Part shown: positions 12,673-56,370 of the stretch, one piece after another
Layout of the letters: each line of letters begins with the position of its first letter
Numbering within the stretch: position 1 is the first letter of the stretch
DNA from: Salvia splendens
Lineage: Eukaryota; Streptophyta; Magnoliopsida; Lamiales; Lamiaceae
Length of the DNA: 64,000 bases
Direction of reading: 5' to 3'
Assembly: GCF_004379255.2 (NCBI RefSeq)
Contig: NC_056049.1
Coordinates: 14,120,063 to 14,184,062 of the forward strand
Notes under the pieces: model-generated
What the model was told of the DNA's origin: nothing
The model's database searches: none
Seen by the model: only the letters and a program-made list of their open reading frames with translations
Translations under genes and position numbers: made by a program

Positions 12673-14016
12673 TGATGTCGTACAATTTCATGTTTTGGAA
12701 CGTGAGGGGGATTGCGAATGCGCCCACTCAAAACGTTCTAAAAAGACTTATTGATTGTCATAATGTTTTATTTCTTGCAATAATGGAACCGCTCACACAC
12801 CCGGACCCGGACCGATTCTCTAAGGCCTTGGGGCTGCCCTTCATTGGTTCGAACACGAACGGGAAGATTTGGATGTTCGCGGAAGAGGGGTCCACTTTTG
12901 ATATTGAGAATGACTCGGAACAAATCCTTCACGGTTACCTCAAGTCCCACCGCCTTGCTAGGCCGGTGGCCATTTCAGCCGTGTACGCCAAATGTACAAG
13001 GGCTGAACGACATCAATTATGGGACAAGATGAGAGAGATTGCCGGGCCTCTCGAGGGAACACCTTGGATCATCGGTGGCGATTTCAACACCATTCTATCA
13101 CACCAAGACAGAGTCGGAAGTGATACTAACCGGCAAGCCGAGATGGTTGATTTTGCGGAGGCAACGGAAGACTGTAGGCTGCTTGATCCTGGTTTTGATG
13201 GAGCGGCATTCACTTGGGCCAAGAATGGCCTCTTTGAAAGGTTGGATAGAGTGCTTGTCAGTGAGGATTGGACTAAGACCTTCGAGGCTACTCGGGTTAC
13301 GAATCTCCCCCGGGTTGCCTCGGACCATGGACCAATTCTTGTCAGGTGCACGAAGATGAACACATCCGCTGGAGCCAAGGCATTCAGGTTCCAGAACATG
13401 TGGATCCGACATGAAGGATTCATGGCCGTAGTGCAAAAAGCATGGGAGGAACCCACGGGGGCGGGTGGAATCCTAAACATTCAAATCAAGCAGGCCAGAG
13501 TTAAAAAGGCCCTTAAGGAGTGGAACAAAGAGGTCTTTGGGAACATCCATGCTAATCTAAAGGAAAAGGAGGAAGAAATTGCTCTGGCCCAATCTAGTTT
13601 CGAGGCAAGGCCGACTCCGGAGCACAGGACAGCGATCAACAAACACATTGCCGAGTACATCCTTTTGCTGAGAATGGAAGAAGATTTTTGGCGACAGAAG
13701 GCAGCTTTGAGGTGGCTTGCCGAGGGAGACAAAAATACCCGGTTCTATCAAAGCTGGGTGAAACAAAAGAGGGTCCGTCTCCGCATCCATTCAATTCGTG
13801 TCAATGGGCAGGAGCTCACCGAGGAAGCCGAGATTAAAAAGTCCGCAGTGGAGTTCTTCCAACAACTCCTTGCCCCCAACAATCCGACACTTGAAGACCC
13901 AGACCTCGACCTAATCCAGCAGGTCCACTCAGCCGAGCAGTTCGTTGACATCGCAGATGCTCCAAGTGCGGACGAGGTCAGGAGTGCCGTCTTTTGCATT
14001 TCCGGAGATAGTGCAC
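12672..14016 (+). pseudogene. LINE-3 ORF2, 5' part (endonuclease and linker), cut by Gyp-A
   Basis: Two candidate starts, ATG 12672 (overlapping the ORF1 TAA) and ATG 12675 (two bases after it, matching the spacing in other copies). The AP-like endonuclease shows FWNVRGIAN, AIMEPLT, AVYAKC, GGDFNTIL (Asp and Asn) and ASDHGPI (Ser-Asp-His), covering about residues 1-225. A helical linker follows (RMEEDFWRQKAALRWLAEGDKNTRFYQSWVKQKR) leading to the start of RT at SGDSA. The frame is interrupted at 14016 by the gypsy LTR. The codon phase is restored when the element and one duplication copy are ignored, with the frame resuming at 19369. Nick-and-prime retrotransposition function is inferred from the family. 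Confidence 0.93.
14012..14016. repeat. Left 5-bp target duplication of Gyp-A (tgcac)
   Basis: tgcac directly precedes the left LTR and recurs at 19364-19368 directly after the right LTR. The interrupted LINE-3 codons join in phase across it. Confidence 0.95.
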
Positions 14017-14416
14017 TGGTGCGGAATTGGGGTTGCCGGAGCTGAGAACGGCGACCGGAATCACACCAATACAGATAGAACTCGTCGGAGGTGAAGAGGG
14101 AATGGGAGAAGAAGAGTATTGCATTAATTTCTGAATGAATTACAAATTGAAGAAGCTACAGATTATAAAGCTATGAGCTAGCTAACTACTTGAATTGGCA
14201 GTTATAACTAACTCGTTCCTAACTAATCTTCATGCCACGTGTCAATCTTCTCTCAGCTTCCCTCGAGTGTACACGTGTCATTTCAGCTCGTCTTCGGCAG
14301 CTCGTCTTCGGCAGCTCGTCTTCGTCTTTTACGTGTCATTTCAGCTCGTCTTCGGCAGCTCGTCTTCGGCAGCTCGTCTTCGGCTTTTATTCTACTAATC
14401 TCATTTCCATGCATCA
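14017..14416 (-). repeat. Gyp-A 3' LTR
   Basis: 400 bp beginning tggtgcggaattgg and ending atgcatca on the plus strand. Contains three ACGTGTC motifs (two within CACGTG) and two runs of a cagctcgtcttcgg unit. Essentially identical to 18964-19363. Confidence 0.96.
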
Positions 14417-14418
14417 AA

Positions 14419-14430
14419 TCTCCCCCCCTT
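14419..14430 (-). other. Gyp-A polypurine tract
   Basis: In element sense AAGGGGGGGAGA lies just before the 3' LTR, where plus-strand DNA priming would start. It is 16 bases from the end of the pol frame. Confidence 0.88.
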
Positions 14431-14445
14431 CAATTAACCTTGTCC

Positions 14446-18930: not shown

Positions 18931-18949
18931 GACAGGCGAAGGATCGTTA

Positions 18950-18961
18950 CCACTGATACCA
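18950..18961 (-). other. Gyp-A primer binding site (tRNA-iMet)
   Basis: In element sense TGGTATCAGTGG starts two bases after the 5' LTR. The first nine bases match the complement of the initiator Met-tRNA 3' end. If the LTR-internal ATG is used, this site lies inside the coding frame. Confidence 0.9.
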
Positions 18962-18963
18962 CT

Positions 18964-19363
18964 TGGTGCGGAATTGGGGTTGCCGGAGCTGAGAACGGCG
19001 ACCGGAATCACACCAATACAGATAGAACTCGTCGGAGGTGAAGAGGGAATGGGAGAAGAAGAGTATTGCATTAATTTCTGAATGAATTACAAATTGAAGA
19101 AGCTACAGATTATAAAGCTATGAGCTAGCTAACTACTTGAATTGGCAGTTATAACTAACTCGTTCCTAACTAATCTTCATGCCACGTGTCAATCTTCTCT
19201 CAGCTTCCCTCGAGTGTACACGTGTCATTTCAGCTCGTCTTCGGCAGCTCGTCTTCGGCAGCTCGTCTTCGTCTTTTACGTGTCATTTCAGCTCGTCTTC
19301 GGCAGCTCGTCTTCGGCAGCTCGTCTTCGGCTTTTATTCTACTAATCTCATTTCAATGCATCA
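18964..19363 (-). repeat. Gyp-A 5' LTR
   Basis: 400 bp, tggtgcgg ... atgcatca on the plus strand, identical to the left LTR except one base. In element sense the U3 holds repeated gccgaagacgagct units and three GACACGT motifs, followed by TTATAA-like AT-rich sequence, then the R/U5 region containing the upstream ATG at 19069-19071. Confidence 0.96.
19183..19285 (-). promoter_or_regulatory. G-box/ABRE-like cluster in Gyp-A U3
   Basis: CACGTG cores at 19183-19188 and 19219-19224, and ACGTGTC at about 19278-19284, all upstream of the presumed transcription start in element sense. ACGTGTC/GACACGT is the classical abscisic-acid response core and CACGTG the G-box. The motifs are interleaved with the 14-base cagctcgtcttcgg repeats. 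The regulatory meaning is inference from motif identity alone. Confidence 0.5.
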
Positions 19364-19368
19364 TGCAC
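19364..19368. repeat. Right 5-bp target duplication of Gyp-A (tgcac)
   Basis: Second copy of tgcac directly after the LTR terminal CA. LINE-3 coding resumes immediately as PGPDGFSATFYQACW. Confidence 0.95.
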
Positions 19369-22184
19369 CCGGACCTGATGGCTTCTCGGCCACCTTCTAT
19401 CAAGCCTGCTGGTCCATTGTGGGGCCGGAGGTAGTGGAAGCAATCAGACAGTTCTTCAGAGGGGCCTTCCTGCCAAGGAGCATCACGGCCACAAGCATTG
19501 TCCTTATCCCAAAGAAGGCATCGCCGGAGTCATGGACCGACTACCGACCCATCAGTCTCTGCAATGTTTTAAACAAGATCATTACCAAGGTACTCACTTC
19601 TCGACTCTCTCCTTTCCTCCCACAGGTCATCTCCCCAAACCAAAGTGGTTTTGTCAAAGGTCGGCTCCTTAACGACAACGCACTTCTGGCTCAAGAAATG
19701 TTCCATGAGCTTGCTAGATGCTCCCCAGCGCCTAATGTGGCAGTAAAGATTGACATGGCTAAAGCCTATGATAGGGTCCAATGGCCCTTCCTCTTCAAAG
19801 TTTTACGCCGTATGGGATTCCCGGATTCATGGATTTCACTTATGGAGAGGTGTATTGGGTATTGCTGGTTCTCGGTCCTTGTTAACGGGGCACCCGCGGG
19901 CTTCTTTAGATCAACTCGTGGACTTCGGCAAGGAGATCCGATCTCCCCCGCTCTGTTCGTGATCGCTGCGGAATACCTGTCCCGAGCATTAGATAAGCTC
20001 ATCCTCGGCCAAAAGGACATGACGTACAAAGCCTCCCGGAGATGCATGGAGATCAGCCATCTAGCCTATGCGGACGACATTATCATCTTCACCCAAGCGG
20101 CGGCAAATCCTATGCGCCGGCTAAGAGCTTGTCTTGAAAAGTATGAAAGAGTCTCCGGCCAACAAGTCAGCCTTGCTAAGAGTAATTTCTATATTGCCGA
20201 GGCCCATGAGCATTGGGCAAACTCGATCCAGGCGGAAGGGGGCTTCACTAGAGGGGTTTTCCCTTTCCTCTACCTCGGAGTACCAATCTATCGTGGTGTC
20301 AAACGCACGGACATGTTCCTCTTTCTACGAGAAAAGATTGCAAGAAGGATCTCAGGATGGGCACACCGTCACCTATCCTTTGGAGGAAGGCTTACGTTGA
20401 TTAAGAGCACCCTTGAAGCGATCCCCTTACACATCTTCCAAGCCGTCGAGCCCACGGCCGGTACCCTTAAGCAACTTGATCAACAAATGGCCCGATTCTT
20501 TTGGGGGTCTACGAATGAGAAGAAGCGGACCCATTGGATTGGTTGGGAACAAATGTGTCGGCCCACTGATGAAGGAGGCCTTGGGATCCGGAAAACTATG
20601 GAGGTCCTCCGCGCCTTCAATATCAAACTTTGGTGGCGCTTTCGGGAGCAAAACTCCCTTTGGGCAAGATACATGATGGCAAAATATTGCACCAACTCCA
20701 CACCGCTCACCTTGAGACTGCCGAGCAGGAGTAGCCCTACGTGGAGAAGGCTCTCAAGAGCATGGCCCCTCGCACAACCGCACATGAGATGGCTAGTGGG
20801 ACAAGGGGACATCTACTTCTGGGATGACATTTGGCTTGGCAATAGCCCTCTGAGGGAATTTAGTCTTGATGATAGGGGAAGACCAACCACCCGGGTTTCG
20901 GCGTTCATTACTAATGGGGGTTGGGATGTGCCCAAGCTTCAGCTTCTTCACAATCAGGCCGGCCTCCCTCAGCATGTTATCGATGGCATCATTAATACAC
21001 CGATCCTCCATGATGAACAGGATATCCTGAGGTGGAACCTCTCTAAACATGGGGAATTCACGGTGGCTTCGACATGGGACACACTTCGAGGGCGAAACCC
21101 GATCATCCAAGGTTTGGGGGACGTTTGGAAGGCAGGCCTCACCAACTCAATAGCCATCTTTATCTGGAGGCTTCTCTCCAATCGGGTGCCGGTTGACACG
21201 AAGCTTCAGTGGCGGGAGATTGAGCTAGCCTCTAAGTGCCAATGCTGCCCCCACCGACCGAATACCGAGTCCCTCCAACACCTCTTCATCCAGGGACATG
21301 GAGCTCGCAGAGTATGGAGCGAGTTTGACGGTTGGTTCACAGGCCCGTTCCCCCGCATCCATATCAATGATACAATCCCTACGAGAATCGAAGTGTGGGC
21401 GCGAAGGTACCAACAGCCGAACAAGAAACATCTTAGCCGAGCCACTCCATACCTCATTCTGTGGTTTATCTGGTCGGAGAGAAACAGGAGTCGCCACCAA
21501 GGCACACAGTTTAAACCACAAAACGTGGTATGGCAGGTCCACATGTTCATTCGGAATGCTATGTCCAATGGAAGCTTGAAGCCGAAACATTGGAAGGGAG
21601 TTAAACTTGGAATCAACATTCCTCAAGCGGCGGCAATCAGGGCGCTACCCCTAGCCATGGCAATCAAATGGAACCCCCCGGACCAGCCGTGGATAAAGCT
21701 CAACACAGATGGCTCCTACAATGAAGCGAACGGTAGAACAGGGGCTGGAGGGATTATTCGAGACCACTTGGGTAAGATGCTCGTCGCCTTCAGCACACCC
21801 CTAGAAGCACACTCGGCGTTAGAGGCGGAGCTGTTGGCCATGCTCCACGGGCTAAATATAGCCAAAGAACTCGCCCTACCAATCTGGATTGAGTCCGATG
21901 CAGAGCAAGCAATCAAATTGGTCAATGGGACAGGATGGGGCCCGGCACTCGCCCGGCAAGCGGTGGCGCAACTAACCCTTCATAAACGCCAACTCAAATT
22001 CCGAGCCACCTTCATACACAGGGAGGGGAACAAAGCGGCGGATTTCCTTGCGAAATTGGGGCTAGACCAAGACAGTGGTCTACGAATGCACTACAACTCA
22101 GCACCGAGAGAACTGTTGGACTTGGTTAGATTGGACGAGATGGGAGTGTCGCACATCCGATACCTTGACGGGAACGGGCATTAA
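19369..22184 (+). pseudogene. LINE-3 ORF2, 3' part (RT, zf-RVT, RNase H)
   Basis: Continuation of the 12672 frame after Gyp-A, open to TAA at 22182-22184; the full protein would be about 1386 residues. RT motifs: NQSGFVKGRLLNDNALLAQEM, VKIDMAKAYDRVQWPF, RGLRQGDPISPALF and AYADDIIIF (about 20063-20090). The zf-RVT-like segment reads SKCQCCPHRPNTESLQHLF (about 21233-21290). The C-terminal RNase H shows LNTDGSYNEA, ALEAELLAML, ESDAEQAIKLVNG and HREGNKAADFLAK (about 21690-22060). No stop or frameshift is present, so the only break in this ORF2 is the gypsy insertion. RNase H at the end of ORF2 is a known feature of one plant L1 lineage. Confidence 0.94.
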
Positions 22185-22432
22185 AGCTGATAATGAGACG
22201 ATGGGAGACAATAGTGACTAGCTTTTTGGTTAATTGTATTTTGGAAAAGAGTATGATGAGGTCCGAACCTTGTGGGATTGGACCGCATACTACTCTTGAT
22301 TTGTTACGGCACACCACTTTTGGGTGTGGCCACGCCTTGTAATTACCGCCTTTGGAATTATAGGGATGAGGGACCCACGAACCCTCCACCGTAGAGGTGT
22401 TTGATAAAAAAAAAAAAAAAAAAAAAAAAAAA
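22185..22432 (+). other. LINE-3 3' UTR and poly(A) tail
   Basis: About 220 bases after the ORF2 stop, then 27 A residues (22406-22432). Holds the ACTTTTG-loop hairpin (22310-22328) and, just before the tail, aaccctccaccgtagaggtg, which can form a CACC/GGTG stem. The last about 60 bases are shared with LINE-2, -5 and -6. The order hairpin, aattac, ggg-cc, aaccctccacc, ggtg, tail also matches the O1E elements. Confidence 0.85.
22310..22328 (+). promoter_or_regulatory. 3' UTR hairpin with ACTTTTG loop (LINE-3)
   Basis: CACACC (22310-22315), loop ACTTTTG (22316-22322), GGTGTG (22323-22328): a perfect 6-bp stem, about 80 bases before the tail. LINE-5 has CACATC/GGTGTG with the same loop (one G-U pair), and the O1E elements carry the same loop core on entirely different stems. 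It is a candidate recognition structure for the LINE RT. Confidence 0.65.
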
Positions 22433-31000: not shown

Positions 31001-32128
31001 GGCCCGGAGCACTATTGGCCGAGATGTCAAATACCGCTCGTTTCACCTCATCCGCATCCGGAGGCTTTGGGAGGTCCGTGAGAAGTTCCGAGGAGGGGAG
31101 TCGTTGTAGGATACTAAGGTCCGGATCCACGAGTTCCAGACAGCTCGGGGCTAGGAGGTTCTGAAAGAACTCAACCGCGGACTCTTTGATGGCCTTGTCA
31201 TCAGTGAGTTCACACCCATTAACGTTGATCTTGTGGATGCGTAGCCGGATCTTCTTCTGCTTCACCAAGCTTTGGTAGAACCTAGTATTTTTATCCCCTT
31301 CTTCTAGCCAACGGAGGGCCGCCTTCTGCCGCCAAAAATCTTCCTCCATTTTAAGAAGAAGTATGTACTCCGCAATCTGTCTGTTGACCTCCGTTCTATT
31401 CCGGGCCGAGGGGTCACCTTCGAACTCCGCTTGTGCCTCTGCAATGCTTTCTTCACAGGTTTTTAAGTTGGAGTGAATATTCCCAAAAATCTCTTTGTTC
31501 CACCTTTTAAGCGTACTCTTGATCCTTTCTAACTTGATCTTCAAATTGAAGATGCCCTCGGCCTCCGTGGGAACCATCCAATCTTCTTTCACCAAGTCAC
31601 CGAAACCCTCATGCTGGACCCACATGTTTTGGAACCTGAACGCTTTCCCGCTCGTAAAGATGTTAGTCAGCCTGCATCTAACAAGGAGAGGCCCGTGATC
31701 AGACGCGATGCGTGGGAGGTTAGTGACTCTTATTGCCTCAAACGTTTGGGCTGTCGTCTCGCTAATCAACACCCTGTCCAACCTTTCCATAAGGCCATTC
31801 TTTGCCCAAGTGAACTCTGATCCATCGTAGCCCGGGTCCATAAGACCACAGCCCTCAATGGCTTCGGTAAAATCAACCATTTCCGCTTGACGGTTTGTAT
31901 CGCTCCCCGTCCTGTCTTGAGAGGAGAGGATCTTGTTGAAGTCCCCTCCTATAAACCACGGCTTCCCATCCGAGAGTTGTGTGATATCCCTTAACTTTTC
32001 CCATAGGACAGGTCGCTCCCCTCTCGTGCATTTAGCATACACGACCGAGAGCATAATAGGAGTTGGGATCCAAGGGCAAGTGAGTTAGTGAGAGAAGCTC
32101 TCCCCTCTCTCTAGAATTCGCCCCTCTT

Positions 32129-32160
32129 CCTCCCTCCCCTTGGAGGGAGGTGATATGTAA
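32129..32160 (+). promoter_or_regulatory. O1E-1 leader hairpin followed by a start-stop uORF
   Basis: CCTCCCTCC (32129-32137), loop cctt, GGAGGGAGG (32142-32150): a 9-bp perfect stem. It is followed by ATG TAA (32155-32160), a minimal upstream ORF, 15 bases before the main ATG. O1E-2 has a different 7-bp stem and a 4-codon uORF at the same place. Confidence 0.55.
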
Positions 32161-32175
32161 GCTTTAGACACGACT

Positions 32176-34350
32176 ATGGTGAAGGCCGGCGGAGAACCGG
32201 CGGTTGAGGCTGCTACGGTTTCATCTCTCACGTTCGAATCACCCCGCTCGCCGGAACGGAGTCTCCCTTTCATCCCACGGCCAAAGACGAAGAGGGCCGG
32301 GACTCCTTTCCCCGAGAGAGGCCGACGTGATCTGAAACGCGTAGGCCTTGAGACAATTTCGGGGGTTAGTCGAATCAAGAAGAAAATGATCTTCGAAATG
32401 GCCGGAGAGCTACTCGATCGGGAAAATGATGAGGGGACGGCGTCGCCGGAAGGAGAGCAGCCTCCCGGTGGGTATATGATGAGCACGTTTGCTCAAATGG
32501 CGAAACCGGGCCCCTTCGAACCAGCTACGGGCCACTTACTCCTTCTCGACCATGAGCGGTTTTTTGCTGCCGGAATCTCGGACGACGACCTAGTGGACCC
32601 ACCAGCCAAATCCAGTTTCCGGGAGGTAGATGAGCCGACGAAAGAGTCGACATCAAATATGGAAGATAAGAAGAAGAAGATTGCAATGGAAATGCTCAAC
32701 TCCGAGGAGGTGGCCGGAATTTCGCCGGCGCCGGCGAGCCGGAGTGAGCTGGACCACCACCCAACCGGTGCAAGTACAATACATCACATGGGTCCTAGGC
32801 TTGAAGATGGGTTGGCATGTGATGTGTTGGAATCATGTGACTTGCAAAAAGAGGTAGAAACAAAGACCACTTTGCATGGGGAAGGAGGTGTTGCTCCAAA
32901 TGGGGAAAATGACAATTTATACTCACAAGCAATACCATGTGCTACTTACCTCCACCTTGAGGCTGATGCACGCATGGAAGACCGTGCCCCCGTGGCACAA
33001 CCGCCGGAGCCGTCGCCGGAAAAGCTGGCACCGACGGAATCTTCGCCGGAAACGCTGGCACCGCCGGCGAATGTGTGGAAGGCGGCAACGAATCATTCCA
33101 ACCGCGGGGGGATCGGGGCCGTGGAGGGTTCATCGGCTCCAAATCGAAAGTCCGAGCCAATCCCCTTGGACGACGGCAAGACCAAGCCTTTGGGTACAGC
33201 CGGCTCTTTTGAAGGTACGCCATCGCTCTCCTTTTCCGATTTTGAAACGGATTTTCTCTCGGAGAAGCTAGGGCTAGCTATTGTCGGGAAGTTCTCCTAT
33301 TCACTCCCGTCCACAACCCAAATTCAAAAAAGTCTTAGTGGCATGGGGCTAGTTGGAGCATTCACATGGAAATACTTGAATGCTAAGCATATTTTACTCC
33401 AATTTCAAGAGGTGACCGATTATGCTAAGGTGCTAAATGGCCCTAATGGGAGTCCGAATTGGTATGTTGATTGCCATCCGATGAGGGTGTTCAAGTGGGC
33501 GCCGGATTTTGACACGTTCTTTGAGTCGCCAATTGTTGCCGTGTGGTGCAACATAATTGGTATACCGGCTCATCTCTATGAGGAATCGGCCCTCTTGGCA
33601 ATCGGTAAGCTCCTTGGCAAGCCACTACAAGCCAATCATGCCACAATTCATCAAAGCCGACTCTCCTTCGCAAGGATTTGCGTAGAGATTGACATCTCTA
33701 CTCCCCCGACGGATGAGATCATCCTTAATATCAGAGGCAAAGACTCGAGGTACAAAGTGGCATGGGACCGTATTCCATTATTTTGTGATAATTGTAAACA
33801 TGTTGGGCATGAGAAAGGGGATTGCCATGCAGCGGGAAGGAAGTCTCGGGGTAGAGACAAGGGTCGCCGAGCATCATACAAGGAGAACCTTCCAAGCCAT
33901 GCCGCCAAGATCATCCACCGTGAGTGGCGCCCAAAGGCGAATGGCACTCCATCGTCCATTGGACAGTTGGAGAAGTCCAAAGATTGTAACAACCACGCGG
34001 AGCACATCGAGGGTACATTGGGTGCGGGATCATCGAAGTCAAGAGTGGCTAGTAGGAGTCACCCAAATGTGGATGAGGATGGCTTCCAATTGGTGTCGAG
34101 GAGGAGGAAAGGAAAAGTGCATGAGGGCGATATGCACACCAAGGCTCCACACGTGGATGATTGGCATTTGAAGGAGAATGTTGTTACGGTGACATTTGGG
34201 AGTGTCTCATCGGGTGCGAATGATGCGAGCTTTCGCTCCATGAGTGTAGCATGTGGGCGCCCCAACCGGGAGATCGAGGGCCACATCGAGGACCTTGATC
34301 CAGGAGAGCATGTGCCTAGCGGAGGTATCCCTATTGCGGGCCTTAGCTAG
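32176..34350 (+). CDS. O1E-1 ORF1-like protein (DUF4283-like, CCHC knuckle)
   Basis: 724 codons, ATG 32176 to TAG 34348-34350. The N-terminal third is low-complexity and variable (Ala/Pro/Ser-rich, repeated PEPSPEKLAPTESSPE). The DUF4283-like core spans about residues 355-500 (LGLAIVGKFSYSLPSTTQIQKSL, YVDCHPMRVFKWAPDFDTFFESPIVAVWCNIIG) and continues ICVEIDISTPPTDEIILNI. The knuckle is CDNCKHVGHEKGDC (about 537-550). The C-terminus is peculiar to the O1E group: DEDGFQLVSRRRKGKVHEGD and LKENVVTVTFGSV, ending MSVACGRPNREIEGHIEDLDP. It lacks the STNQYYSLM segment of LINE ORF1. Likely an RNA-binding protein. The frame is fully open while the host LINE is broken. A retrocopied host DUF4283 gene is an alternative origin. 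Confidence 0.85.
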   Translation: MVKAGGEPAVEAATVSSLTFESPRSPERSLPFIPRPKTKRAGTPFPERGRRDLKRVGLETISGVSRIKKKMIFEMAGELLDRENDEGTASPEGEQPPGGYMMSTFAQMAKPGPFEPATGHLLLLDHERFFAAGISDDDLVDPPAKSSFREVDEPTKESTSNMEDKKKKIAMEMLNSEEVAGISPAPASRSELDHHPTGASTIHHMGPRLEDGLACDVLESCDLQKEVETKTTLHGEGGVAPNGENDNLYSQAIPCATYLHLEADARMEDRAPVAQPPEPSPEKLAPTESSPETLAPPANVWKAATNHSNRGGIGAVEGSSAPNRKSEPIPLDDGKTKPLGTAGSFEGTPSLSFSDFETDFLSEKLGLAIVGKFSYSLPSTTQIQKSLSGMGLVGAFTWKYLNAKHILLQFQEVTDYAKVLNGPNGSPNWYVDCHPMRVFKWAPDFDTFFESPIVAVWCNIIGIPAHLYEESALLAIGKLLGKPLQANHATIHQSRLSFARICVEIDISTPPTDEIILNIRGKDSRYKVAWDRIPLFCDNCKHVGHEKGDCHAAGRKSRGRDKGRRASYKENLPSHAAKIIHREWRPKANGTPSSIGQLEKSKDCNNHAEHIEGTLGAGSSKSRVASRSHPNVDEDGFQLVSRRRKGKVHEGDMHTKAPHVDDWHLKENVVTVTFGSVSSGANDASFRSMSVACGRPNREIEGHIEDLDPGEHVPSGGIPIAGLS

Positions 34351-34476
34351 GTGATGGATTGAAGTGTTGGGGATACAAAGGTTGTATCAAATGGTAATTG
34401 GATTTTGAGAGTATATAGATGACCACCTCTAGTTGTTAGGGAGGCCCTCGTTGTACTCTAATTTGTCATGCCTTGG

Positions 34477-34501
34477 CGAGTCGTCACTTTTGGGCGACTC
34501 G
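34477..34501 (+). promoter_or_regulatory. O1E-1 3' UTR hairpin (CGAGTCG / CGACTCG)
   Basis: Seven-base stem CGAGTCG/CGACTCG around loop TCACTTTTGGG, about 86 bases before the tail. Relative to O1E-2 two base pairs are exchanged in a compensatory way (C-G for T-A, and T-A for C-G), and O1E-4 has the intermediate T-G pair. This supports a real RNA structure. Confidence 0.75.
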
Positions 34502-34587
34502 GTGTATGTTTGTTTGTAATCAATGATTTTTGTAATGCACAGGTGTGGGTCCGCCTCAACCCTCCGCCCTTTGGGGTGTGTTGAAAG

Positions 34588-34625
<38 letters not shown>

Positions 34626-43190: not shown

Positions 43191-43524
43191 ACCGGGCACT
43201 GGCTCAATGAGTGTAGAATGTGGGCCCCCCGAGCGGGAGATGGAAGGATTTTCGTTGAGGACCTTGACCCAGGAGGATGCGTCCCTTGTGGAGGTATTCC
43301 TATCGCGGGACTTAGTTAGGAGATCGACTCATGATTTTGTTGATGCACAGGCTGCATCATAGTAATTGTAATAGGTGCCCTAAGAGTATATATCCCACTC
43401 TAGTTGTTAGAGAGGCCCTCGTTGTACTCTAATTGGTTGTGACGAGTCGTCACTTTTGGACGGCTCGGTGTTTATGGTTGTTGTTTCAATTGCCCCTTTT
43501 TTAATTCACAGGTGTGGGTCCGCA
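43191..43524 (+). mobile_element. O1E-4: 3' fragment of an ORF1-only element
   Basis: Begins with the last codons of the ORF1-like frame (SMSVECGPPEREMEGF ... IAGLS, stop TAG at about 43317-43319) and the conserved 3' UTR (gggcactggctcaatgagtg ... ggccctcgttgtactctaattgg ... caggtgtgggtccgc). Both the upstream ORF and the final hairpin and tail are missing. Internal C-terminal codons differ in frame from the other copies by small changes. It represents a third variant of the family. Confidence 0.82.
43443..43467 (+). promoter_or_regulatory. O1E-4 3' UTR hairpin (CGAGTCG / CGGCTCG)
   Basis: Stem with one U-G pair at the position that is T-A in O1E-1 and C-G in O1E-2/3, loop TCACTTTTGGA. It is the intermediate expected between the two compensated states. 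Confidence 0.65.
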
Positions 43525-47664: not shown

Positions 47665-50287
47665 TGCCAAGTGCTTTTGTGTCTCTTTTACAGGAATTCG
47701 AAGATGTTTTTCCCGTGGAAGAATCAAGTGGATTACCGCCATTAAGAGGTATTGAACACCAAATTGACCTTATTCCCGGGGCAGTTCTACCAAATCGACC
47801 AGCCTATAGAGCCAATCCCGAAGAGACTAAGGAAATTCAAAGGCAAGTGCAAGAGTTGTTGGACAATGGAAAAATCCGTGAGAGCATGAGTCCATGTGCT
47901 GTTCCGGTAATTGTTGTTTCTAAGAAAGATGGATCATGGAGGATGTGCATCGACTGCCGAGCAATCAACAAAATCACGGTAAAGTATCGCTATCCTATTC
48001 CTAGGCTAGATGATATGCTTGATGAATTGCATGGTTCTGTTGTGTTTAGTAAGATCGATTTGAAAAGTGGTTATCATCAAATTCGAATTAGAGAAGGAGA
48101 CGAATGGAAAACAGCCTTTAAAACAAAATTTGGTCTATATGAGTGGTTAGTAATGCCTTTTGGTTTAACTAATGCACCAAGTACTTTCATGAGGTTGATG
48201 CACCATGTTTTGAGAAAATTCATTGGAAAATTTGTGGTTGTTTATTTTGATGATATTCTTGTCTATAGCAAAAATGTGAATGAGCATCATAACCATGTGC
48301 GTGCAGTTTTGGATACCTTACGAAAAGAATCATTGTATGCAAATCTCAAAAAGTGTTCTTTTTGCATGGATAAAGTTGTTTTTCTGGGTTTTGTTATAAG
48401 TGCTAATGGGATTGAAATGGAAAAAGAGAAGGTGAAAGCTATTTTAGAATGGCCAATTCCTCAAAATGTAGCACAAGTTAGAAGTTTTCATGGTCTTGCT
48501 AGTTTTTATAGGAGGTTTGTCAAGGATTTTAGTACAATTGCTGCACCTTTGAATGAAATTGTGAAAAAGGATGTTTGTTTTTATTGGGGAGAAAAACAAG
48601 AACATGCTTTTAATCTCCTTAAAGAAAAACTTACAACTGCACCAATTCTTTCTTTGCCTAACTTTGATAACATGTTTGAGCTTGAATGTGATGCATCTGG
48701 GGTAGGCATAGGAGCTGTTTTGTTGCAGGATAGGAAGCCAATCGCGTACTTTAGCGAAAAGTTGAAAGGAGCTCAATTGAACTATCCAACGTATGACAAG
48801 GAGTTATATGCTTTGGTTAGAGCTTTGGAAACATGGCAGCATTACTTGTGGCCTAGAGAGTTTGTAATTCACACGGATCATGAATCTCTCAAGTACTTGA
48901 AAGGTCAAGGTAAGCTTAGCAAGAGACATGTTAAGTGGGTGGAATTCATTGAATCATTTCCCTATGTAATCAAATACAAAAAGGGAAAAGAAAATATTGT
49001 GGCTGATGCATTATCTCGGAGGTACATTTTGATCACTACTTTGAGTTCTAAGTTGCTTGGTTTTGAGTTGATTAAGGAAATGTATGATAATGACCCGGAC
49101 TTTTCTTCTATCTATTTAGCTTGTGAGCATGCTGCATTTGACAAGTTCTATAGGCATGATGGCTATTTGTTTAGAGAAAACAAATTATGCATTCCTAAAG
49201 GTTCTATGCGTGAATTGCTTGTGCGTGAAGCTCATGGTGGTGGTTTAATGGGTCATTTTGGAGTCCATAAGACAATGAATGTTTTGCTTGAACATTTCTT
49301 TTGGCCTAAAATGCGTGTGGATGTTGAAAGAATTTGTAAAAGATGCATAACTTGCATGCAAGCCAAGTCTAAATCACACCCACATGGTTTGTACAAACCG
49401 TTACCAATTCCTAGTGCACCTTGGGAGGATATTTCAATGGACTTTGTTGTTGGTTTGCCAAGAACAAAAAGAGGTAGAGATTCAGTTTTTGTGGTTGTTG
49501 ATAGGTTTTCAAAAATGGCACATTTTATTCCATGTCACAAAATTGATGATGCATCTCATATCGCTGATTTGTTCTTTAAAGAAATTGTCCGTTTGCATGG
49601 TGTTCCTAGATCAATTGTGAGTGATCGAGATGCTAAATTTGTGAGTCATTTTTGGCGAGTGTTGTGGAATAAGTTGGGAACTAAACTCTTGTTTTCTACT
49701 ACTTGTCATCCACAAACTGATGGACAAACTGAAGTAGTTAATAGGACTTTGTCTCAATTACTACGTACTTTAGTTAAAAAGAACTTGAAAAGTTGGGAGG
49801 AATGCTTACCTTTTGCTGAGTTTGCTTATAATCGAAGTGTCCATTCTGCTACTAACTTTTCCCCATTTGAAGTTGTGTATGGTTTCAATCCATTGAGTCC
49901 ACTAGATTTGATTCCAATACCTATTGAAGATCGTGCAAGTCTTGATGGAAAAGCTAAGGCTGAAATGGTGAAAAGATTGCATGAAAGGGTAAGACTCAAC
50001 ATTGAAAAGAGGACAGAACAATATGCAAAGCAAGCCAACAAGGGTCGGAAACAAGTCATCTTTGAGCCGGGAGATTGGGTTTGGTTGCATATGAGAAAGG
50101 AGAGATTTCCTTCGAAAAGAAAGTCCAAGTTGCAGCCAAGAGGAGATGGACCATTCCAAGTGATTGGAAAAGTCAATGATAATGCTTACAAACTTGACTT
50201 ACCTGGTGAGTTTAATGTAAGTGCTACTTTCAATGTTTCTGATTTATCTCCTTATGTTGGTGAATTAGATTCGAGGACGAATCCTCT

Positions 50288-50302
50288 TGAAGAAGAAGGG
50301 AA
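50288..50302 (+). other. Gyp-B1 polypurine tract
   Basis: tgaagaagaagggaa directly before the 3' LTR start (tgatggagg at 50303). It lies inside the pol frame, encoding EEEGN. Confidence 0.85.
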
Positions 50303-50496
50303 TGATGGAGGTACACCCAAGCTGATCAACAAGGACAAGAAGATGGATCCATTAATCATTCAAAGTGGACCAATTACAAGAGCTAGAGCTAAGAAGATAA
50401 AGGAGTCCATGATGCTTTTAGTTGATGAAATAAAAGCCCAATTCCAAGACCATTCAACTTTGGGCCAAATGGTGAATATTATTCAAGTTAGTGGGC

Positions 50497-50514
50497 AGCC
50501 CAATGCATGAAGTT
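50497..50514. repeat. Left target duplication of O1E-2
   Basis: agcccaatgcatgaagtt, repeated at 53164-53181 directly after the A-tail. Seventeen or eighteen bases, since the first A may be part of the tail. The sequence after the right copy (ttgagtcaat) continues the interrupted LTR exactly. Confidence 0.95.
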
Positions 50515-50602
50515 GAGTACTTGAAAAGTCAAGTGAGAGAAGCTCCCACATCTCTCTAGAAAGTCTTGCCCCAACCATCTCACGTCCAACGCCGACGGTC
50601 TC

Positions 50603-50640
50603 CCTCACCTTTGGGTGAGGTGGATATGCCGCCGGCCTAA
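50603..50640 (+). promoter_or_regulatory. O1E-2 leader hairpin and 4-codon uORF
   Basis: CCTCACC (50603-50609), loop tttg, GGTGAGG (50614-50620), followed by ATG CCG CCG GCC TAA (50626-50640) and the main ATG at 50649. O1E-3 has the same hairpin with ATG CGG CCG GCC TAA. O1E-1 has a different, longer stem and ATG TAA. Confidence 0.55.
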
Positions 50641-50648
50641 CGTTGGTC

Positions 50649-52898
50649 ATGGTCCAGCCCGGAAGGGACTCACCGGGGAAGGAGGTCAAGGGCACGAGTC
50701 CCTCTCCCTCGCCAAAATGGGTTTTCCGACCAACTAATGCGAAACGGAATATGAAAAAGTCAGCCACTCCCCACCCCATTAAAAACGGTGGTAATACAAA
50801 ACGCAGCGCTTGTGTGCCATTGACGGAGACCGGAAGGGTGAGGAAGAAGATTGTCTTTGAGTTCGATGAGCTTATTGCCGGAACAAAGGGTGGAGGTAGC
50901 GCCATTGCCGGAAAAGACGGTTGGAGCTCCCTGCCCGGGGAGAGAGAGAAGGGCCGATGGAAGAGAAAGGCACGACCTGGCCCTTTTGAAGCCAGCACCG
51001 GAGCGTTTGAGGTGGTGCCGGGAGTTCTCCCATTACTCGCGGGGGAGCTCCGTTTCTCCATGGGACAAAAGGACGGCTCGGCCAGGCACCAGCCGGAAGT
51101 CGTGACCGGAACTCGGCTGGAGGGTGCATTACCGGAGGTGAATGAGGCCGTTGCACAAGGGGTACTCCGGTCAACGCGCGTGGAGGCGGCTGCGAGTGCA
51201 GCTGTCTTGGACGAGGACACATCCTCGGAAAGGTATGGTGCCAACATGCTTTTTGACCCACCCACTCTTGCTGCACCATTTCCGGAAAAGGATAGGCATG
51301 TACTAGCTAGTGAGACATGTGACTCCCTTATGGGTCAAAGCCTCTTGCAATTCAAATCTGGTGATGGTACAAATTTCAAGGCCGAGGATAACAATGGAGG
51401 GGGTGAGGCCGGGCTCAACGGGAAGCCGTCGGCGCCGGATAACCCGTCGGACCCGCCGGACAAGCTGCTGGACCAGGACAGGGACCAGCCGGAAATCCTA
51501 CCCAAGCACTCGGCGTCTGAGGTAGGCATCGACGTGGCCTCCCCCGTTGGGAGTCCGCCGACGTTGGGTCACTCGCTGGAATTCATCACGGACAAGGCCG
51601 CTCAAGCCGAGACCCAACCTGTTGAGCCAGATCTAGATGAAAAGCCCGCGAACACGGGTGCCGGGCTGGATAGTGGAGGACCACCGAAATCCGACGCGGT
51701 GAACCTTGATGCTGATCACGACACGGAGATGGGGACATTCGGATGGTGTGAAGGGATCCCTTCGCTTACATTCTCAAACGAGGAAACAAAGTGCTTGGTG
51801 GACAAGGTAGGGCACGCCATTATCGGAAAGTTCTCCCACACCCTCCCAACACCACAACAAATCCAAAAATCCCTTTCCAACATCAACTTCGTCGATGGAT
51901 TCAAATGGAAGTTCGTTACTGCCAAGCACATCCTAATCCAATTCCGTGATGTACGAGATTACGGCCGGATGCTCAATGGTCCCAATGGAGCGCCGGTTTG
52001 GTTTGTCGAGCATCACCCAATGCGGGTGTTCAAATGGACTCCGGAGTTCGACACATTTTTTGAGACACCTATTGCCGCCGTTTGGTGTAAGGTGGTGGGA
52101 CTCCCGATTCATCTCTATGACCAAGTAGCCCTCATTGCGATTGGCAAGTTGTTGGGGAAGCCAATCCAAGTGGACCATGCAACCTTCAACCAAACCCGAC
52201 TCACCTTTGCCCGGATGTGTATTGAGATTGATATCTCGACGCCTCCACCGGTGGAGATCATTCTCAACATCCTAGGCAAAGACACTAGGTACAAGGTGGT
52301 ATGGGATCGGATTCCCCTATTTTGTGCGGAATGTAAGCATGTTGGGCACGTCAAGGAAACATGCCTTATCCTAGGGAGGAGAAAGGAACAGGCCACCACG
52401 GATCCCACCCGACCACCACAACCCCGCCGACCCCACTCTGCGTCAAATCCCATCCGCCGGGAATGGAGGCTGAAAACTAACGTGCATGGCACCCACAACC
52501 CGGAGCCGGGCCAAGGGTCTATGCCAAAGGGGGAGACCGAGCCGGGGACACACAAAGAGAAGAGCGGTGCGGAAGCGGCTCCTAGCTTGAAAGCAACACC
52601 GAGGGTGCAAGCCCAGATAGATGACGATGGTTTCCAAGTGGTGTCTAGGAAGAAGAAAGGAAAGGTCCACGAGGGTGACGGGTACATCAGAGCTCTCCAC
52701 AATGATAAATTGCATCTTAAGGAGAACGTAGCAACGGTTACTTTTAGGGCCGACGACTCGGGTGCAAATGAGCCGGGCATTGGCTCAATGAGTGTATCAT
52801 GTGGGTTCCTAAGCCGGGAAATGGAGGGCTTCATCGAGGACCTCGATCCGGGAGGGGTTGTCCCATGTGGGGGCACCCCTATCGCGGGCCTCAACTAG
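50649..52898 (+). CDS. O1E-2 ORF1-like protein (DUF4283-like, CCHC knuckle)
   Basis: 749 codons from ATG 50649 (MVQPGRDSPGKEVKGTSPSP) to TAG 52896-52898. Basic N-terminus with KTERN-like Lys/Arg patches; variable Pro/Asp-rich middle (SAPDNPSDPPDKLLDQDRDQ); DUF4283-like core at about residues 385-560 (VGHAIIGKFSHTLPTPQQIQKSL, FVEHHPMRVFKWTPEFDTFFETPIAAVWCKVVG, ARMCIEIDISTPPPVEIILNI); knuckle CAECKHVGHVKETC (about 560-573); C-terminal DDDGFQVVSRKKKGKVHEGD, LKENVATVTFRADDSG and the end motif IAGLN. The core is roughly 60% identical by eye to O1E-1, yet both frames are fully open. Role inferred: RNA binding in a retroposon RNP. Confidence 0.88.
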   Translation: MVQPGRDSPGKEVKGTSPSPSPKWVFRPTNAKRNMKKSATPHPIKNGGNTKRSACVPLTETGRVRKKIVFEFDELIAGTKGGGSAIAGKDGWSSLPGEREKGRWKRKARPGPFEASTGAFEVVPGVLPLLAGELRFSMGQKDGSARHQPEVVTGTRLEGALPEVNEAVAQGVLRSTRVEAAASAAVLDEDTSSERYGANMLFDPPTLAAPFPEKDRHVLASETCDSLMGQSLLQFKSGDGTNFKAEDNNGGGEAGLNGKPSAPDNPSDPPDKLLDQDRDQPEILPKHSASEVGIDVASPVGSPPTLGHSLEFITDKAAQAETQPVEPDLDEKPANTGAGLDSGGPPKSDAVNLDADHDTEMGTFGWCEGIPSLTFSNEETKCLVDKVGHAIIGKFSHTLPTPQQIQKSLSNINFVDGFKWKFVTAKHILIQFRDVRDYGRMLNGPNGAPVWFVEHHPMRVFKWTPEFDTFFETPIAAVWCKVVGLPIHLYDQVALIAIGKLLGKPIQVDHATFNQTRLTFARMCIEIDISTPPPVEIILNILGKDTRYKVVWDRIPLFCAECKHVGHVKETCLILGRRKEQATTDPTRPPQPRRPHSASNPIRREWRLKTNVHGTHNPEPGQGSMPKGETEPGTHKEKSGAEAAPSLKATPRVQAQIDDDGFQVVSRKKKGKVHEGDGYIRALHNDKLHLKENVATVTFRADDSGANEPGIGSMSVSCGFLSREMEGFIEDLDPGGVVPCGGTPIAGLN

Positions 52899-53024
52899 GT
52901 GACGGACTTAAGTTTTTGACGATGCGATGGCTGCATCATTATAATTGTAATAGGGATGCTAAGAGTATTTAGATGACCACCCTAGTTTATTGGGAGGCCC
53001 TCGTTGTACTCTAATTGGTCGTGG

Positions 53025-53049
53025 TGAGCCGTCACTTTTGGGCGGCTCA
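53025..53049 (+). promoter_or_regulatory. O1E-2 3' UTR hairpin (TGAGCCG / CGGCTCA)
   Basis: Seven-bp perfect stem around loop TCACTTTTGGG, about 84 bases before the tail. Further on, aaccctccaccctcggggtg forms a CACCC/GGGTG stem immediately before the A-tail, as in LINE-3. Confidence 0.75.
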
Positions 53050-53132
53050 ATGGTTGTTTGTTTTGGCTGCAATTACTGTTGGTAATGCACAGGTGTGGGT
53101 CCGCCTTAACCCTCCACCCTCGGGGTGCTTAA

Positions 53133-53163
<31 letters not shown>

Positions 53164-53165
<2 letters not shown>

Positions 53166-53181
53166 CCCAATGCATGAAGTT
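53164..53181. repeat. Right target duplication of O1E-2
   Basis: agcccaatgcatgaagtt, exact copy of 50497-50514. Confidence 0.95.
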
Positions 53182-53406
53182 TTGAGTCAATATATATCAC
53201 ATTTTGGAGGCCCAAATTGAAGATAAATGATGCATTTTCGTCCAAGTTGGAGCAGCAAAAATGAAGAGTCATTTTTAAGTTACTTTTTGAGTTAAATAAG
53301 TGACTTTTTTTTTTTTTTTTTTTTAAAGCACCCCGAGGGTGGAGGGTTAAGGCGGACCCACACCTGTGCATTACCAACAGCAATTGCAGCCAAAACAAAC
53401 AACCAT

Positions 53407-53431
53407 TGAGCCGCCCAAAAGTGACGGCTCA
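53407..53431 (-). promoter_or_regulatory. O1E-3 3' UTR hairpin (TGAGCCG / CGGCTCA)
   Basis: Same stem and loop as O1E-2, in minus orientation, about 83 bases from the tail. Confidence 0.72.
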
Positions 53432-53557
53432 CCGCGACCAATTAGAGTACAACGAGGGCCTCCCAATAAACTAGGGTGGTCATCTAAATACTCTTAGCAT
53501 CCCTATTACAATTATAATGATGCAGCCATCGCATCGTCAAAAACTTAAGTCCGTCAC

Positions 53558-55807
53558 CTAGTTGAGGCCCGCGATAGGGGTGCCCCCACATGGGACAACC
53601 CCTCCCGGATCGAGGTCCTCGATGAAGCCCTCCATTTCCCGGCTTAGGAACCCACATGATACACTCATTGAGCCAATGCCCGGCTCATTTGCACCCGAGT
53701 CGTCGGCCCCAAAAGTAACCGTTGCTACGTTCTCCTTAAGGTGCAACTTATCATTGTGGAGAGCTCTGATGTACCTATCACCCTCGTGGACCTTTCCTTT
53801 CTTCTTCCTAGACACCACTTGGAAACCATCGTCATCTGCCTGGACTTGCACCCTCGGTGTTGCTTTCAAGCTAGGAGCCGCTTCCGCACCGCTCTTCTCT
53901 TTGTGTGTCCCCGGCTCGGTCTCCCCCTTTGGCATAGACCCTTGGCCCGGATCCGGGTTGTGGGTGCCATGCACGTTAGTTTTCAGCCTCCATTCCCGGC
54001 GGATGGGATTTGACGCAGAGTGGGGTCGGCGGGGTTGTGGTGGTCGGGTGGGATCCGTGGTGGCCTGCTCCTTTCTCCTCCCTAGGATAAGGCATGTTTC
54101 CTTGACGTGCCCAACATGCTTACATTCCGCACAAAATAGGGGAATCCGATCCCATACCACCTTGTACCTAGTGTCTTTGCCTAGGATGTTGAGAATGATC
54201 TCCACCGGTGGAGGCGTCGAGATATCAATCTCAATACACATCCGAGCAAAGGTGAGTCGGGTTTGGTTGAAGGTCGCATGGTCCACTTGGATTGGCTTCC
54301 CCAACAACTTGCCAATCGCAATGAGGGCTACTTGGTCATAGAGATGGATCGGGAGTCCCACCACCTTACACCAAACGGCGGCAATAGGTGTCTCAAAAAA
54401 TGTGTCGAACTCCGGAGTCCATTTGAACACCCGCATTGGGTGATGCTCGACAAACCAAACCGGCGCTCCATTGGGACCATTGAGCATCCGGCCGTAATCT
54501 CGTACATCACGGAATTGGATTAGGATGTGCTTGGCGTTAACGAACTTCCATTTGAATCCATCGACGAAGTTGATGTTGGAAAGGGATTTTTGGATTTGTT
54601 GTGGTGTTGGAAGGGTGTGGGAGAACTTTCCGATAATGGCGTGCCCTACCTTGTCCACCAAGCACTTTGTTTCCTCGTTTGAGAATGTAAGCGAAGGGAT
54701 CCCTTCACACCATCCGAATGTCCCCATCTCCGTGTCGTGATCAGCATCAAGGTTCACCGCGTCAGATTTCGGTGGTCCTCCACTATCCAGCCCGGCACCC
54801 GTGTTCGCGGGCTTTTCATCTAGATCTGGCTCAACAGGTTGGGTCTCGGCTTGAGCGGCCTTGTCCGTGATGAATTCCAGCGAGTGACCCAACGTCGGCG
54901 GACTCCCAACGGTGGAGGCCACGTCGATGCCTACCTCAGACGCCGAGTGCTTGGGTAGGATTTCCGGCTGGTCCCTATCCTGGTCCAGCAGCTCGTCCGG
55001 CGGGTCCGACGGGTTATCCGGCGCCGACGGCGTCCCGTTGAGCCCGGCCTCACCCCCTCCATTGTTATCCTCGGCCTTGAAATTTGTACCATCACCAGAT
55101 TTGAATTGCAAGAGGCTTTGACCCATAAGGGAGTCACATGTCTCACTAGCTAGTACATGCCTATCCTTTTCCGGAAATGGTGCAGCAAGAGTGGGTGGGT
55201 CAAAAAGCATGTTGGCACCATTCCTTTCCGAGGATGTGTCCTCGTCCAAGACAGCTGCACTTGCAGCCGCCTCCACGCGCGTTGACCGGAGTACCCCTTG
55301 TGCAACGGCCTCATTCACCTCCGGTAATGCACCATCCAGCCGAGTTCCGGTCACGACTTCCGGCTGGTGCCTGGCCGAGCCGTCCTTTTTTCCCATGGAG
55401 AAACGGAGCTCCCCCGCGAGTAATGGGAGAACTCCCGGCACCACCTCAAACGCTCCGGTGCTGGCTTCAAAAGGGCCAGGTCGTGCCTTTCTCTTCCACC
55501 GGCCCTTCTCTCTCTCCCCGGGGAGGGAGCTCCAACCGTCTTTTCCGGCAAAGGCGCTACCTCCACCATTAGTTCCGGCAATAAGCTCATCGAACTCAAA
55601 GACAATCTTCTTCCTCACCCTTCCGGTCTCCGTCAATGGCACACAAGCGCTGCGTTTTGTATTACCACCGTTTTTAATGGGGTGGGGAGTGGCTGACTTT
55701 TTCATATTCCGTTTCGCATTAGTTGGTCGGAAAACCCATTTCGGCGCGGGAGAGGGACTCGTGCCCTTGACCTCCTTCCCCGGTGAGTCCCTTCCGGGCT
55801 GGACCAT
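53558..55807 (-). CDS. O1E-3 ORF1-like protein (DUF4283-like, CCHC knuckle)
   Basis: 749 codons from ATG 55805-55807 to TAG at 53558-53560, same domain order as O1E-2: basic N-terminus, variable middle, DUF4283-like core (VGHAIIGKFSHTLPTPQQIQ), knuckle CAECKHVGHVKETC, C-terminal VSRKKKGKVHEGD and IAGLN. Differences from O1E-2 include GTNGGGSAFAG for GTKGGGSAIAG, FVNAKH for FVTAKH and QADDDG for QIDDDG. Most differences that I can read change the amino acid, so no purifying selection is visible between these two very young copies. No stop or frameshift. Confidence 0.88.
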   Translation of the reverse strand: MVQPGRDSPGKEVKGTSPSPAPKWVFRPTNAKRNMKKSATPHPIKNGGNTKRSACVPLTETGRVRKKIVFEFDELIAGTNGGGSAFAGKDGWSSLPGEREKGRWKRKARPGPFEASTGAFEVVPGVLPLLAGELRFSMGKKDGSARHQPEVVTGTRLDGALPEVNEAVAQGVLRSTRVEAAASAAVLDEDTSSERNGANMLFDPPTLAAPFPEKDRHVLASETCDSLMGQSLLQFKSGDGTNFKAEDNNGGGEAGLNGTPSAPDNPSDPPDELLDQDRDQPEILPKHSASEVGIDVASTVGSPPTLGHSLEFITDKAAQAETQPVEPDLDEKPANTGAGLDSGGPPKSDAVNLDADHDTEMGTFGWCEGIPSLTFSNEETKCLVDKVGHAIIGKFSHTLPTPQQIQKSLSNINFVDGFKWKFVNAKHILIQFRDVRDYGRMLNGPNGAPVWFVEHHPMRVFKWTPEFDTFFETPIAAVWCKVVGLPIHLYDQVALIAIGKLLGKPIQVDHATFNQTRLTFARMCIEIDISTPPPVEIILNILGKDTRYKVVWDRIPLFCAECKHVGHVKETCLILGRRKEQATTDPTRPPQPRRPHSASNPIRREWRLKTNVHGTHNPDPGQGSMPKGETEPGTHKEKSGAEAAPSLKATPRVQVQADDDGFQVVSRKKKGKVHEGDRYIRALHNDKLHLKENVATVTFGADDSGANEPGIGSMSVSCGFLSREMEGFIEDLDPGGVVPCGGTPIAGLN

Positions 55808-56370
55808 GACCGACGTTAGGCCGGCCGCATATCCACCTCACCCAAAGGTGAGGGAGACCGTCGGCGTTGGACGTGAGATGGTTGGGGCAAGACTTTCTAG
55901 AGAGATGTGGGAGCTTCTCTCACTCTCCCTTCCCCCTTCAAACTCCTAAAGTCACACCAATAGTTAGGAGTTACTTTTCACTTATTATGAGTCATTCTAA
56001 AGGTCTTAAGTTGTACTAATGATATGAGACTTTCAAGAGTCCATTCTAGCCTATAAATAGGCTTGTAAGCATGTCATTTGAGGACACCATTGATCAAATA
56101 CGAAAATAGACTTTGTCTTGTGAGTTGAATTCTCTTTGTAGAGTTTTTCACTTGTTTGGAACTTATCAAGATACTTTGAGCAAGTTCTTGTGGCGTTCAA
56201 CCATACCGAGGTTCTTGGCTGATCATATAGCCAACGGGTCGAGGTTTTACAAGCTCTGGAAGTGGATCAAACCAGATTATCAATCAAGGGAGTCCGCTGC
56301 CAAACCTTATACGTGGGGTTCTTGGATCAATATATCCAACGGGTCCTTCGTCCTATCCCAATCCATATCA

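Follow-up and report, generated by a model that had tools for sequence, protein, structure and literature searches.

Mammalian HAL1 (half-L1) elements are non-autonomous derivatives of L1 that encode only the protein of open reading frame 1 (ORF1), ORF1p (PMC5753468). Celine and Celine-like long interspersed nuclear elements (LINEs) of poplar, tea and ash, members of the L1-CS subclade, have an ORF1 with a DUF4283 domain, a poly(A) tail and target duplications of 10-30 bp, are reported to prefer G or T at the first non-A base of the duplication, insert frequently in Gypsy elements including CRM, and are enriched in centromeres; which component of a LINE carries the centromere targeting is left open in that paper (PMC11288735). 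Plant SINE/LINE pairs consist of a non-autonomous short interspersed nuclear element (SINE) and an L1 partner with a common 3'-end sequence and hairpin (PMC3747384). In Salvia splendens, whose published assembly comprises 807 Mb in 22 pseudochromosomes, the pericentromeres defined by Hi-C are 0.3-1.2 Mb long and dominated by LINE1, with 93-573 LINE1 each (PMC8408255). Here we describe O1E, found in several copies in a window of 64,000 nucleotides of S. splendens contig NC_056049.1 (positions 14,120,063 to 14,184,062; coordinates below are those of the window). We consider it highly probable that O1E is a non-autonomous family of the L1 clade that encodes only ORF1p, comprises at least four lineages, has the ORF2 protein (ORF2p) of a two-ORF relative, L1A, as its putative mobiliser, and inserts in centromere-like targets.

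O1E shares with HAL1 the presence of ORF1 and the lack of endonuclease and reverse transcriptase (RT), judged by Pfam and by 58 O1E-type 3' untranslated regions (UTRs), not one of which follows an ORF2. It occurs in many copies that have defined ends, a poly(A) tail and target duplications, and its related ORF1 core and termini indicate L1 descent. It differs in the kingdom of its host and in its ORF1, a plant DUF4283 and zinc knuckle protein rather than a mammalian-type L1 ORF1; unlike HAL1, it comprises at least four lineages whose C-terminus is private to O1E, and the copies scored lie at one spot per chromosome. Because ORF1 type and host kingdom differ, O1E is a convergent counterpart that works like HAL1, presumably by mobilisation in trans, and is not HAL1 by descent. 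With Celine it has in common the DUF4283 ORF1, the style of insertion and probably the habitat, but Celine has an ORF2 and O1E has none; the Celine-like candidate here is L1A, for which membership of the L1-CS subclade is a candidate assignment only. Compared with SINE/LINE pairs, O1E is a protein-coding element of 2.6 kb and not a SINE, and the structure of its tail is less uniform than that of L1 tails. The LINE1-dominated pericentromeres concern the same species and the same class of repeat, and the part of that account compared makes no mention of ORF1-only elements or of separate LINE1 families (PMC8408255). In the open-access literature searched, nothing was found on a plant LINE family that has ORF1 alone. 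If our reading is true, plants possess a half-L1 strategy independent of that in mammals and under selection through several lineages, and O1E bears on why an element without enzymes keeps ORF1 at all.

Three ORF1-only units in one window

The unit O1E-2 occupies 50532-53163 on the plus strand; it opens with AGTGAGAGAAGC, the family start, and closes with its poly(A). An initial annotation of the window had this unit begin at 50515; the end it gave stands, and the first 17 bases (50515-50531), which separate the left target duplication from the family start, proved private to this copy. The target duplication of 17-18 bp that it had proposed is present as AGCCCAATGCATGAAGTT, 18 nt of which the first A is ambiguous with the tail, at 50497-50514 and again at 53164-53181. 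The left copy lies at the end of the pol frame of a Ty3 element (47886-50510, plus strand), which is the host of the insertion and which we take, from the character of its sequence, to be CRM-like. Within O1E-2, a 5' leader (50532-50648), whose first ~34 nt are a hairpin similar to the start of L1A, is followed by an ORF1 of 749 aa (50649-52898) and a 3' UTR (52899-53134) with the tail GGGTCC..AACCCTCCACC..GTG, alignable with the 3' UTRs of the ORF2-bearing LINEs of the window. ORF1 comprises an N-terminal region, DUF4283 at residues 401-525, a CX2CX4HX4C knuckle that reads CAECKHVGHVKETC / CDNCKHVGHEKGDC in the translations, and an O1E-specific C-terminus.

For O1E-3 (53305-55944; ORF1 of 749 aa at 53558-55807), the structure first described holds, with the correction that the unit is on the minus strand, inside a Ty3 long terminal repeat (LTR), and has no target duplication; about 6 bp (AGATGT) were lost from the LTR, as judged against uninterrupted LTR copies in the window. 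O1E-1, of a second lineage (32087-34622, plus strand; ORF1 of 724 aa at 32176-34350), is an antisense insertion in a LINE ORF2, with no clear target duplication at that site. A fragment on the plus strand (43192-43523) contains the end of ORF1 and the 3' UTR, both element ends being missing. The common plan of the three units and the fragment (leader, DUF4283 frame, knuckle, 3' UTR and poly(A)) was as the initial annotation had it, and the same is true of the frames, open at 724, 749 and 749 codons in O1E-1, O1E-2 and O1E-3. Each of the three has DUF4283 as its sole Pfam match (E 4.6e-22, 2.7e-22 and 8.2e-23), with no endonuclease or RT domain, again as proposed, and a tblastn search for remnants of ORF2 in O1E gave no match better than E 1.9. 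The DUF4283 core of this plant LINE ORF1 (51705-52478) has an RRM-like fold in a predicted model of moderate confidence. At the DNA level, identity between O1E-2 and O1E-3 is 98.6% over 2,620 bp; against these two, O1E-1 reaches about 70% in the core and 76% across the last part of the frame and the 3' UTR. The core proteins of O1E-1 and O1E-2 are 59.5% identical (residues 380-600), in line with the difference at roughly 40% of core residues noted at the outset.

Copies, lineages and a two-ORF relative

Searches of an 806 Mb assembly returned 1254 first-look candidates for O1E-2 and 1497 for O1E-1, figures that are not copy numbers, and the best 40 of each were scored, a best-scoring sample being uninformative on how often copies are 5'-truncated. 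For O1E-2, 32 of 40 scored matches were near full length (query <=36 to >=2600) at 98-100% identity, both window copies counted; for O1E-1, 25 of 40 were (<=46 to >=2496), at 93-100% identity, the window copy counted. Closer examination covered 39 copies of the O1E-2 lineage, two of them from the window and 37 from the remaining 38 scored matches. It also took in 12 copies of the O1E-1 lineage, one of them that of the window. No ORF2 was found in any of these copies. Pairwise identity among 32 full-length copies is 97.8-99.9%, so the units are not a chance arrangement, and identity to the nearest neighbour is 99.2-99.9%. O1E is a recently active family.

Target duplications of at least 10 nt adjoining the poly(A) were found for 25 of 33 tailed copies of the O1E-2 lineage, the six of 39 copies without a poly(A) run having been dropped, and for 8 of 12 copies of the O1E-1 lineage. 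When flanks were paired from different copies as a control, only 6 of 1056 and 2 of 132 combinations reached that length. One of the 25 (copy L033) is doubtful, and pairs of copies such as L017/L018 and L047/L049 have flanks in common, each pair going back to a single insertion. Among 29 duplications the first base other than A is G in 19 cases, C in seven and T in three, a partial likeness to the preference of Celine. The exact 749-codon frame is kept in 20 of 39 copies, and the 724-codon frame in 7 of 12. L017 (C2, 22.17 Mb) and L018 (22.15 Mb), which have identical 5' flanks and lie about 24 kb apart, illustrate segmental duplication within a cluster.

The C-terminus of the O1E frame is not alignable with that of L1A-type ORF1s, and searches of a protein collection found one S. 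splendens copy as its only relative for O1E-2 and none for O1E-1. In a sample of 266 kb, made up of the window and largely non-redundant loci and biased in that most were chosen for an O1E match, 57 of 58 O1E-type 3' UTRs are preceded by an O1E C-terminus, none by ORF2, and one is cut by the end of its locus; in the window alone the count is four of four. This result supports, as the best reading, the initial annotation's proposal of a non-autonomous family that keeps its own ORF1. The 21 matches to L1-type 3' UTRs have ORF2 upstream in 13 cases, neither in five, a nearby locus end in two, and an O1E C-terminus in two (one of them also ORF2); in both of these last, an O1E copy is lodged within an L1 3' end or immediately ahead of it. 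A third and a fourth lineage, more distant, represented by L059 and by L058 and L060 respectively, have the O1E-type C-terminus and tail with no ORF2 between in the stretches examined, and their ORF1 frames are broken. Four lineages consequently have this private C-terminus and tail in common, and no ORF2 was found in any that was examined. In an unrooted tree of the core, O1E is split from the L1-type ORF1s with support of 0.994; the tree took in both main lineages and one L058-type copy and, on the other side, L1-type sequences from this genome, one from S. divinorum and two other proteins, and a single origin of O1E assumes a root among the L1s.

L1A is represented in the window by a 5'-truncated two-ORF copy on the plus strand (10090-22432), with a DUF4283 ORF1 (10090-12672), an ORF2 that contains endonuclease and RT (12672-14016 and 19364-22184), and a 3' UTR and poly(A) that extend to 22432. 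Its ORF2 is split by a chromodomain Ty3 element (whole element about 14017-19363, target duplication TGCAC; polyprotein 14446-19071, minus strand), used below as a dispersed control. The O1E core is 52-56% identical to that of L1A. The 3' UTRs of four ORF2-bearing LINEs of the window, the ones whose 3' ends were compared, can be aligned with those of O1E, reading GGGACC...AACCCTCCACC...GGTG where O1E reads GGGTCC...AACCCTCCRCC...GTG. Among 43 leader matches in the loci examined, 41 stand ahead of O1E frames and two (L016 and L045) do not. L016 led to L061 (G000 C6:22570300-22576300), a copy of the L1A family that starts with AGTGAGAGAAGCTCCTCCTTCTCTCTAAAATTC; its leader is followed by an ORF1 97.6% identical to that of the window L1A, and then by an endonuclease and RT frame open to the end of the stretch. 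The leader and the tail of the L1A family are known from different copies, as the L061 stretch stops before its 3' end. The three best places in the window for the L1A leader are the three O1E starts, with 29, 26 and 26 of 34 nt matching, the next best having 22, and a short hairpin is present in all five full leader words folded, a sixth being too short for folding. The initial annotation had held that its proposal would fall if the same leader and 3' UTR routinely flanked an ORF2, the units then being deleted LINEs. That condition is approached in part, since a leader and 3' UTR of related form (29 or 26 of the first 34 nt for the leader) flank an ORF2 in L1A; O1E-type 3' UTRs are never so placed in the 58 cases. 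L061, with its long open frames, directly adjoins an O1E insertion.

Since a two-ORF L1 of S. splendens resembles O1E in its leader hairpin and is related to it in its 3' tail, O1E is derived from L1, and we read it as an old, diversified family descended from such a LINE and not as a set of scattered deletions. In folding of 3' ends, five of seven L1 tails share two hairpins and one more does so partly, while O1E tails mostly fold differently as wholes, the terminal stem alone being possible in most; this may be taken as supportive of the relation between the tails, not as proof of it. A single consensus 3' hairpin for O1E and L1 was dropped, O1E tails mostly folding otherwise. Scored L1A matches (n=38) are 99-100% identical, which indicates recent activity. 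As a recently active LINE with related ends in the same genome, L1A is the natural candidate for the donor of ORF2.

Clustering at one spot per chromosome

Of the 22 largest contigs, 18 carry scored O1E matches, which fall in one narrow stretch per contig apart from two O1E-1 outliers. On contigs that also have O1E-2 matches, all 25 O1E-1 matches lie within 1 Mb of one, where 1.6 would be expected at random. Of the matches that could be compared with an L1A match, those within 1 Mb of one number 18 of 18 for O1E-2, 28 of 30 for O1E-1 and 22 of 28 for the CRM-like Ty3 element, against 4 of 29 for the control chromodomain Ty3 element; the remainder of each set of 40 lie, in the same order, on small scaffolds (10, 5, 4 and 1) or on large contigs without an L1A match (12, 5, 8 and 10). 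That LINE1 dominates S. splendens pericentromeres is already known. What is new here is that the scored matches to both O1E lineages, to L1A and, less strictly, to the CRM-like Ty3 element cluster at one spot per chromosome.

The clusters are most likely the centromeres, a reading based on positional clustering; we take them as centromeric because the published Hi-C pericentromeres, 0.3-1.2 Mb long, are enriched in LINE1 (PMC8408255). With an ORF1-only element and its two-ORF relative going to identical spots, the pair lends itself directly to the question of which part of a LINE is responsible for the targeting of centromeres. Near-identical copies of the chromodomain Ty3 element are spread over the chromosomes, unlike its neighbours in the window.

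Selection on ORF1 and alternative explanations

Substitution rates at nonsynonymous (dN) and synonymous (dS) sites were obtained by a simple Nei-Gojobori count, in which dS above 1 is near saturation. Between O1E-1 and O1E-2, dN is 0.54 and dS 1.60, a ratio of 0.34 that falls to 0.20 in the core, this being the comparison that the initial annotation had suggested. The ratio is 0.33 between O1E-1 and L059, at dS 0.53, and 0.32 between O1E-1 and L058, at dS 0.79; all seven between-lineage pairs range from 0.26 to 0.34 at dS 0.53-1.64. Among 20 recent copies with an intact 749-codon frame the mean is 0.52, with 0.24 in the core and 0.93 in the first 200 codons. A ratio of about 0.3 between lineages suggests that ORF1 is in use, and the protein, above all its DUF4283-knuckle core, appears to have been used over a long time.

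These values bear on an explanation in which the frame is open only through the youth of the copies, O1E ORF1 being a passenger and L1A ORF1p doing the work. The mutual identity of the full-length copies (97.8-99.9%), the near-neutral first 200 codons among recent copies and the resemblance of O1E RNA ends to those of L1A are all as it would have them, but the between-lineage ratios and the core value of 0.20 are not, nor is the survival of an intact frame in each of the three window units and, among the copies examined, in 20 of 39 and 7 of 12, and we regard this explanation as improbable. Still less probable is that the units arose as independent internal deletions of ordinary two-ORF LINEs and form no family of their own. 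The relation of their leader and 3' tail to those of L1A would fit such an origin; the uniform structure across copies, the unalignable C-terminus common to four ORF2-less lineages and its presence ahead of 57 of 58 O1E-type 3' UTRs would not, and the 0.994 split from L1-type ORF1s points to one old origin. An origin of the units as processed pseudogenes, with a host gene of LINE ORF1 ancestry as parent, is scarcely credible, despite their poly(A) tails and target duplications and the hypothetical proteins that NCBI gene models derive from such copies. Their termini are L1-like at both ends, purifying selection between four lineages is unexpected of pseudogenes, and the predicted proteins show what looks like an artefact of gene prediction: 9 of 12 protein matches to O1E-2 are predicted S. 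splendens proteins, and eight of these nine leave the O1E frame at one point (CLVDK), probably through the effect of repeat masking. An intron-bearing host gene, which the initial annotation had weighed as a possible source, was not seen in a non-exhaustive search (three protein searches, which returned S. splendens models leaving the frame mid-way and L1-type relatives), and the copies have ends, tails and target duplications of their own. In public S. splendens gene models (SASPL_* proteins), O1E copies are treated as hypothetical proteins.

Two further proposals concern the clusters. Repeats commonly accumulate in gene-poor, recombination-poor DNA, and the clustering might reflect passive survival there and not targeting, an account compatible with our reading of the element itself. 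Some O1E copies are segmental duplicates, as it would predict, but O1E copies are young and their target duplications mostly differ from one another, and the chromodomain Ty3 element of the window, near-identical copies of which exist as well, is dispersed along the chromosomes; we think passive survival doubtful, if the most plausible of the alternatives. We judge unlikely a split system in which a specialised O1E ORF1p, kept in several lineages and possessing the C-terminus that is absent from L1A ORF1, would shape or direct insertion of the ribonucleoprotein into centromeric chromatin, L1A would supply ORF2p, and the two would jointly build and renew the centromeres of S. splendens.

For O1E as an ORF1-only family mobilised by L1A, the following cycle can be proposed. 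An ancestral L1 probably lost ORF2 and kept its leader hairpin, its ORF1 with the RRM-like DUF4283 and zinc knuckle, and the tail of its 3' UTR, and would then have diversified into at least four ORF1-only lineages. O1E would be transcribed into polyadenylated RNA, which its own ORF1p would bind and coat; L1A ORF2p would recognise the related 3' tail and poly(A) and, by target-primed reverse transcription, insert a new copy, giving the target duplications of 11-22 bp. Insertion would be almost confined to the one narrow spot per chromosome common with L1A, with centromeric, presumably CENH3-associated, chromatin as the target.

Several points weigh against this proposal. The cycle is deduced from sequence. 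Two of the 30 O1E-1 matches (on C5 and C7) lie outside the clusters, and LINE1 density was itself part of the published definition of the centromeres (PMC8408255). With a ratio of 0.93 in the first 200 codons of the 20 recent intact copies, the N-terminal part of ORF1 appears weakly constrained, and selection between lineages could date in part from a two-ORF ancestor. Many copies have broken frames, so the ORF1p of one copy may serve others. ORF2-bearing O1E copies may exist beyond the 40 candidates scored in each search, and a single origin depends on the root lying among the L1s. Since O1E and L1A differ in their 3' UTRs, related as these are, another LINE could be the donor.

Both ends of the element show smaller peculiarities. 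The 5' target duplication and the family start are separated by as many as about 45 nt, in several copies by 25, and this sequence varies among copies, its only common parts being short ends such as CGAACT or ATTATCTT. It could stem from transcription that starts upstream or from template switching. At the other end of the frame, dS in the last 80 codons is 0.86 between O1E-1 and O1E-2, against 1.66-2.25 in other parts, and 0.17 against 0.62 between O1E-1 and L059. For L058 the values are 0.71 and 0.80, hardly lowered, so the pattern is only a hint of possible constraint at the RNA level.

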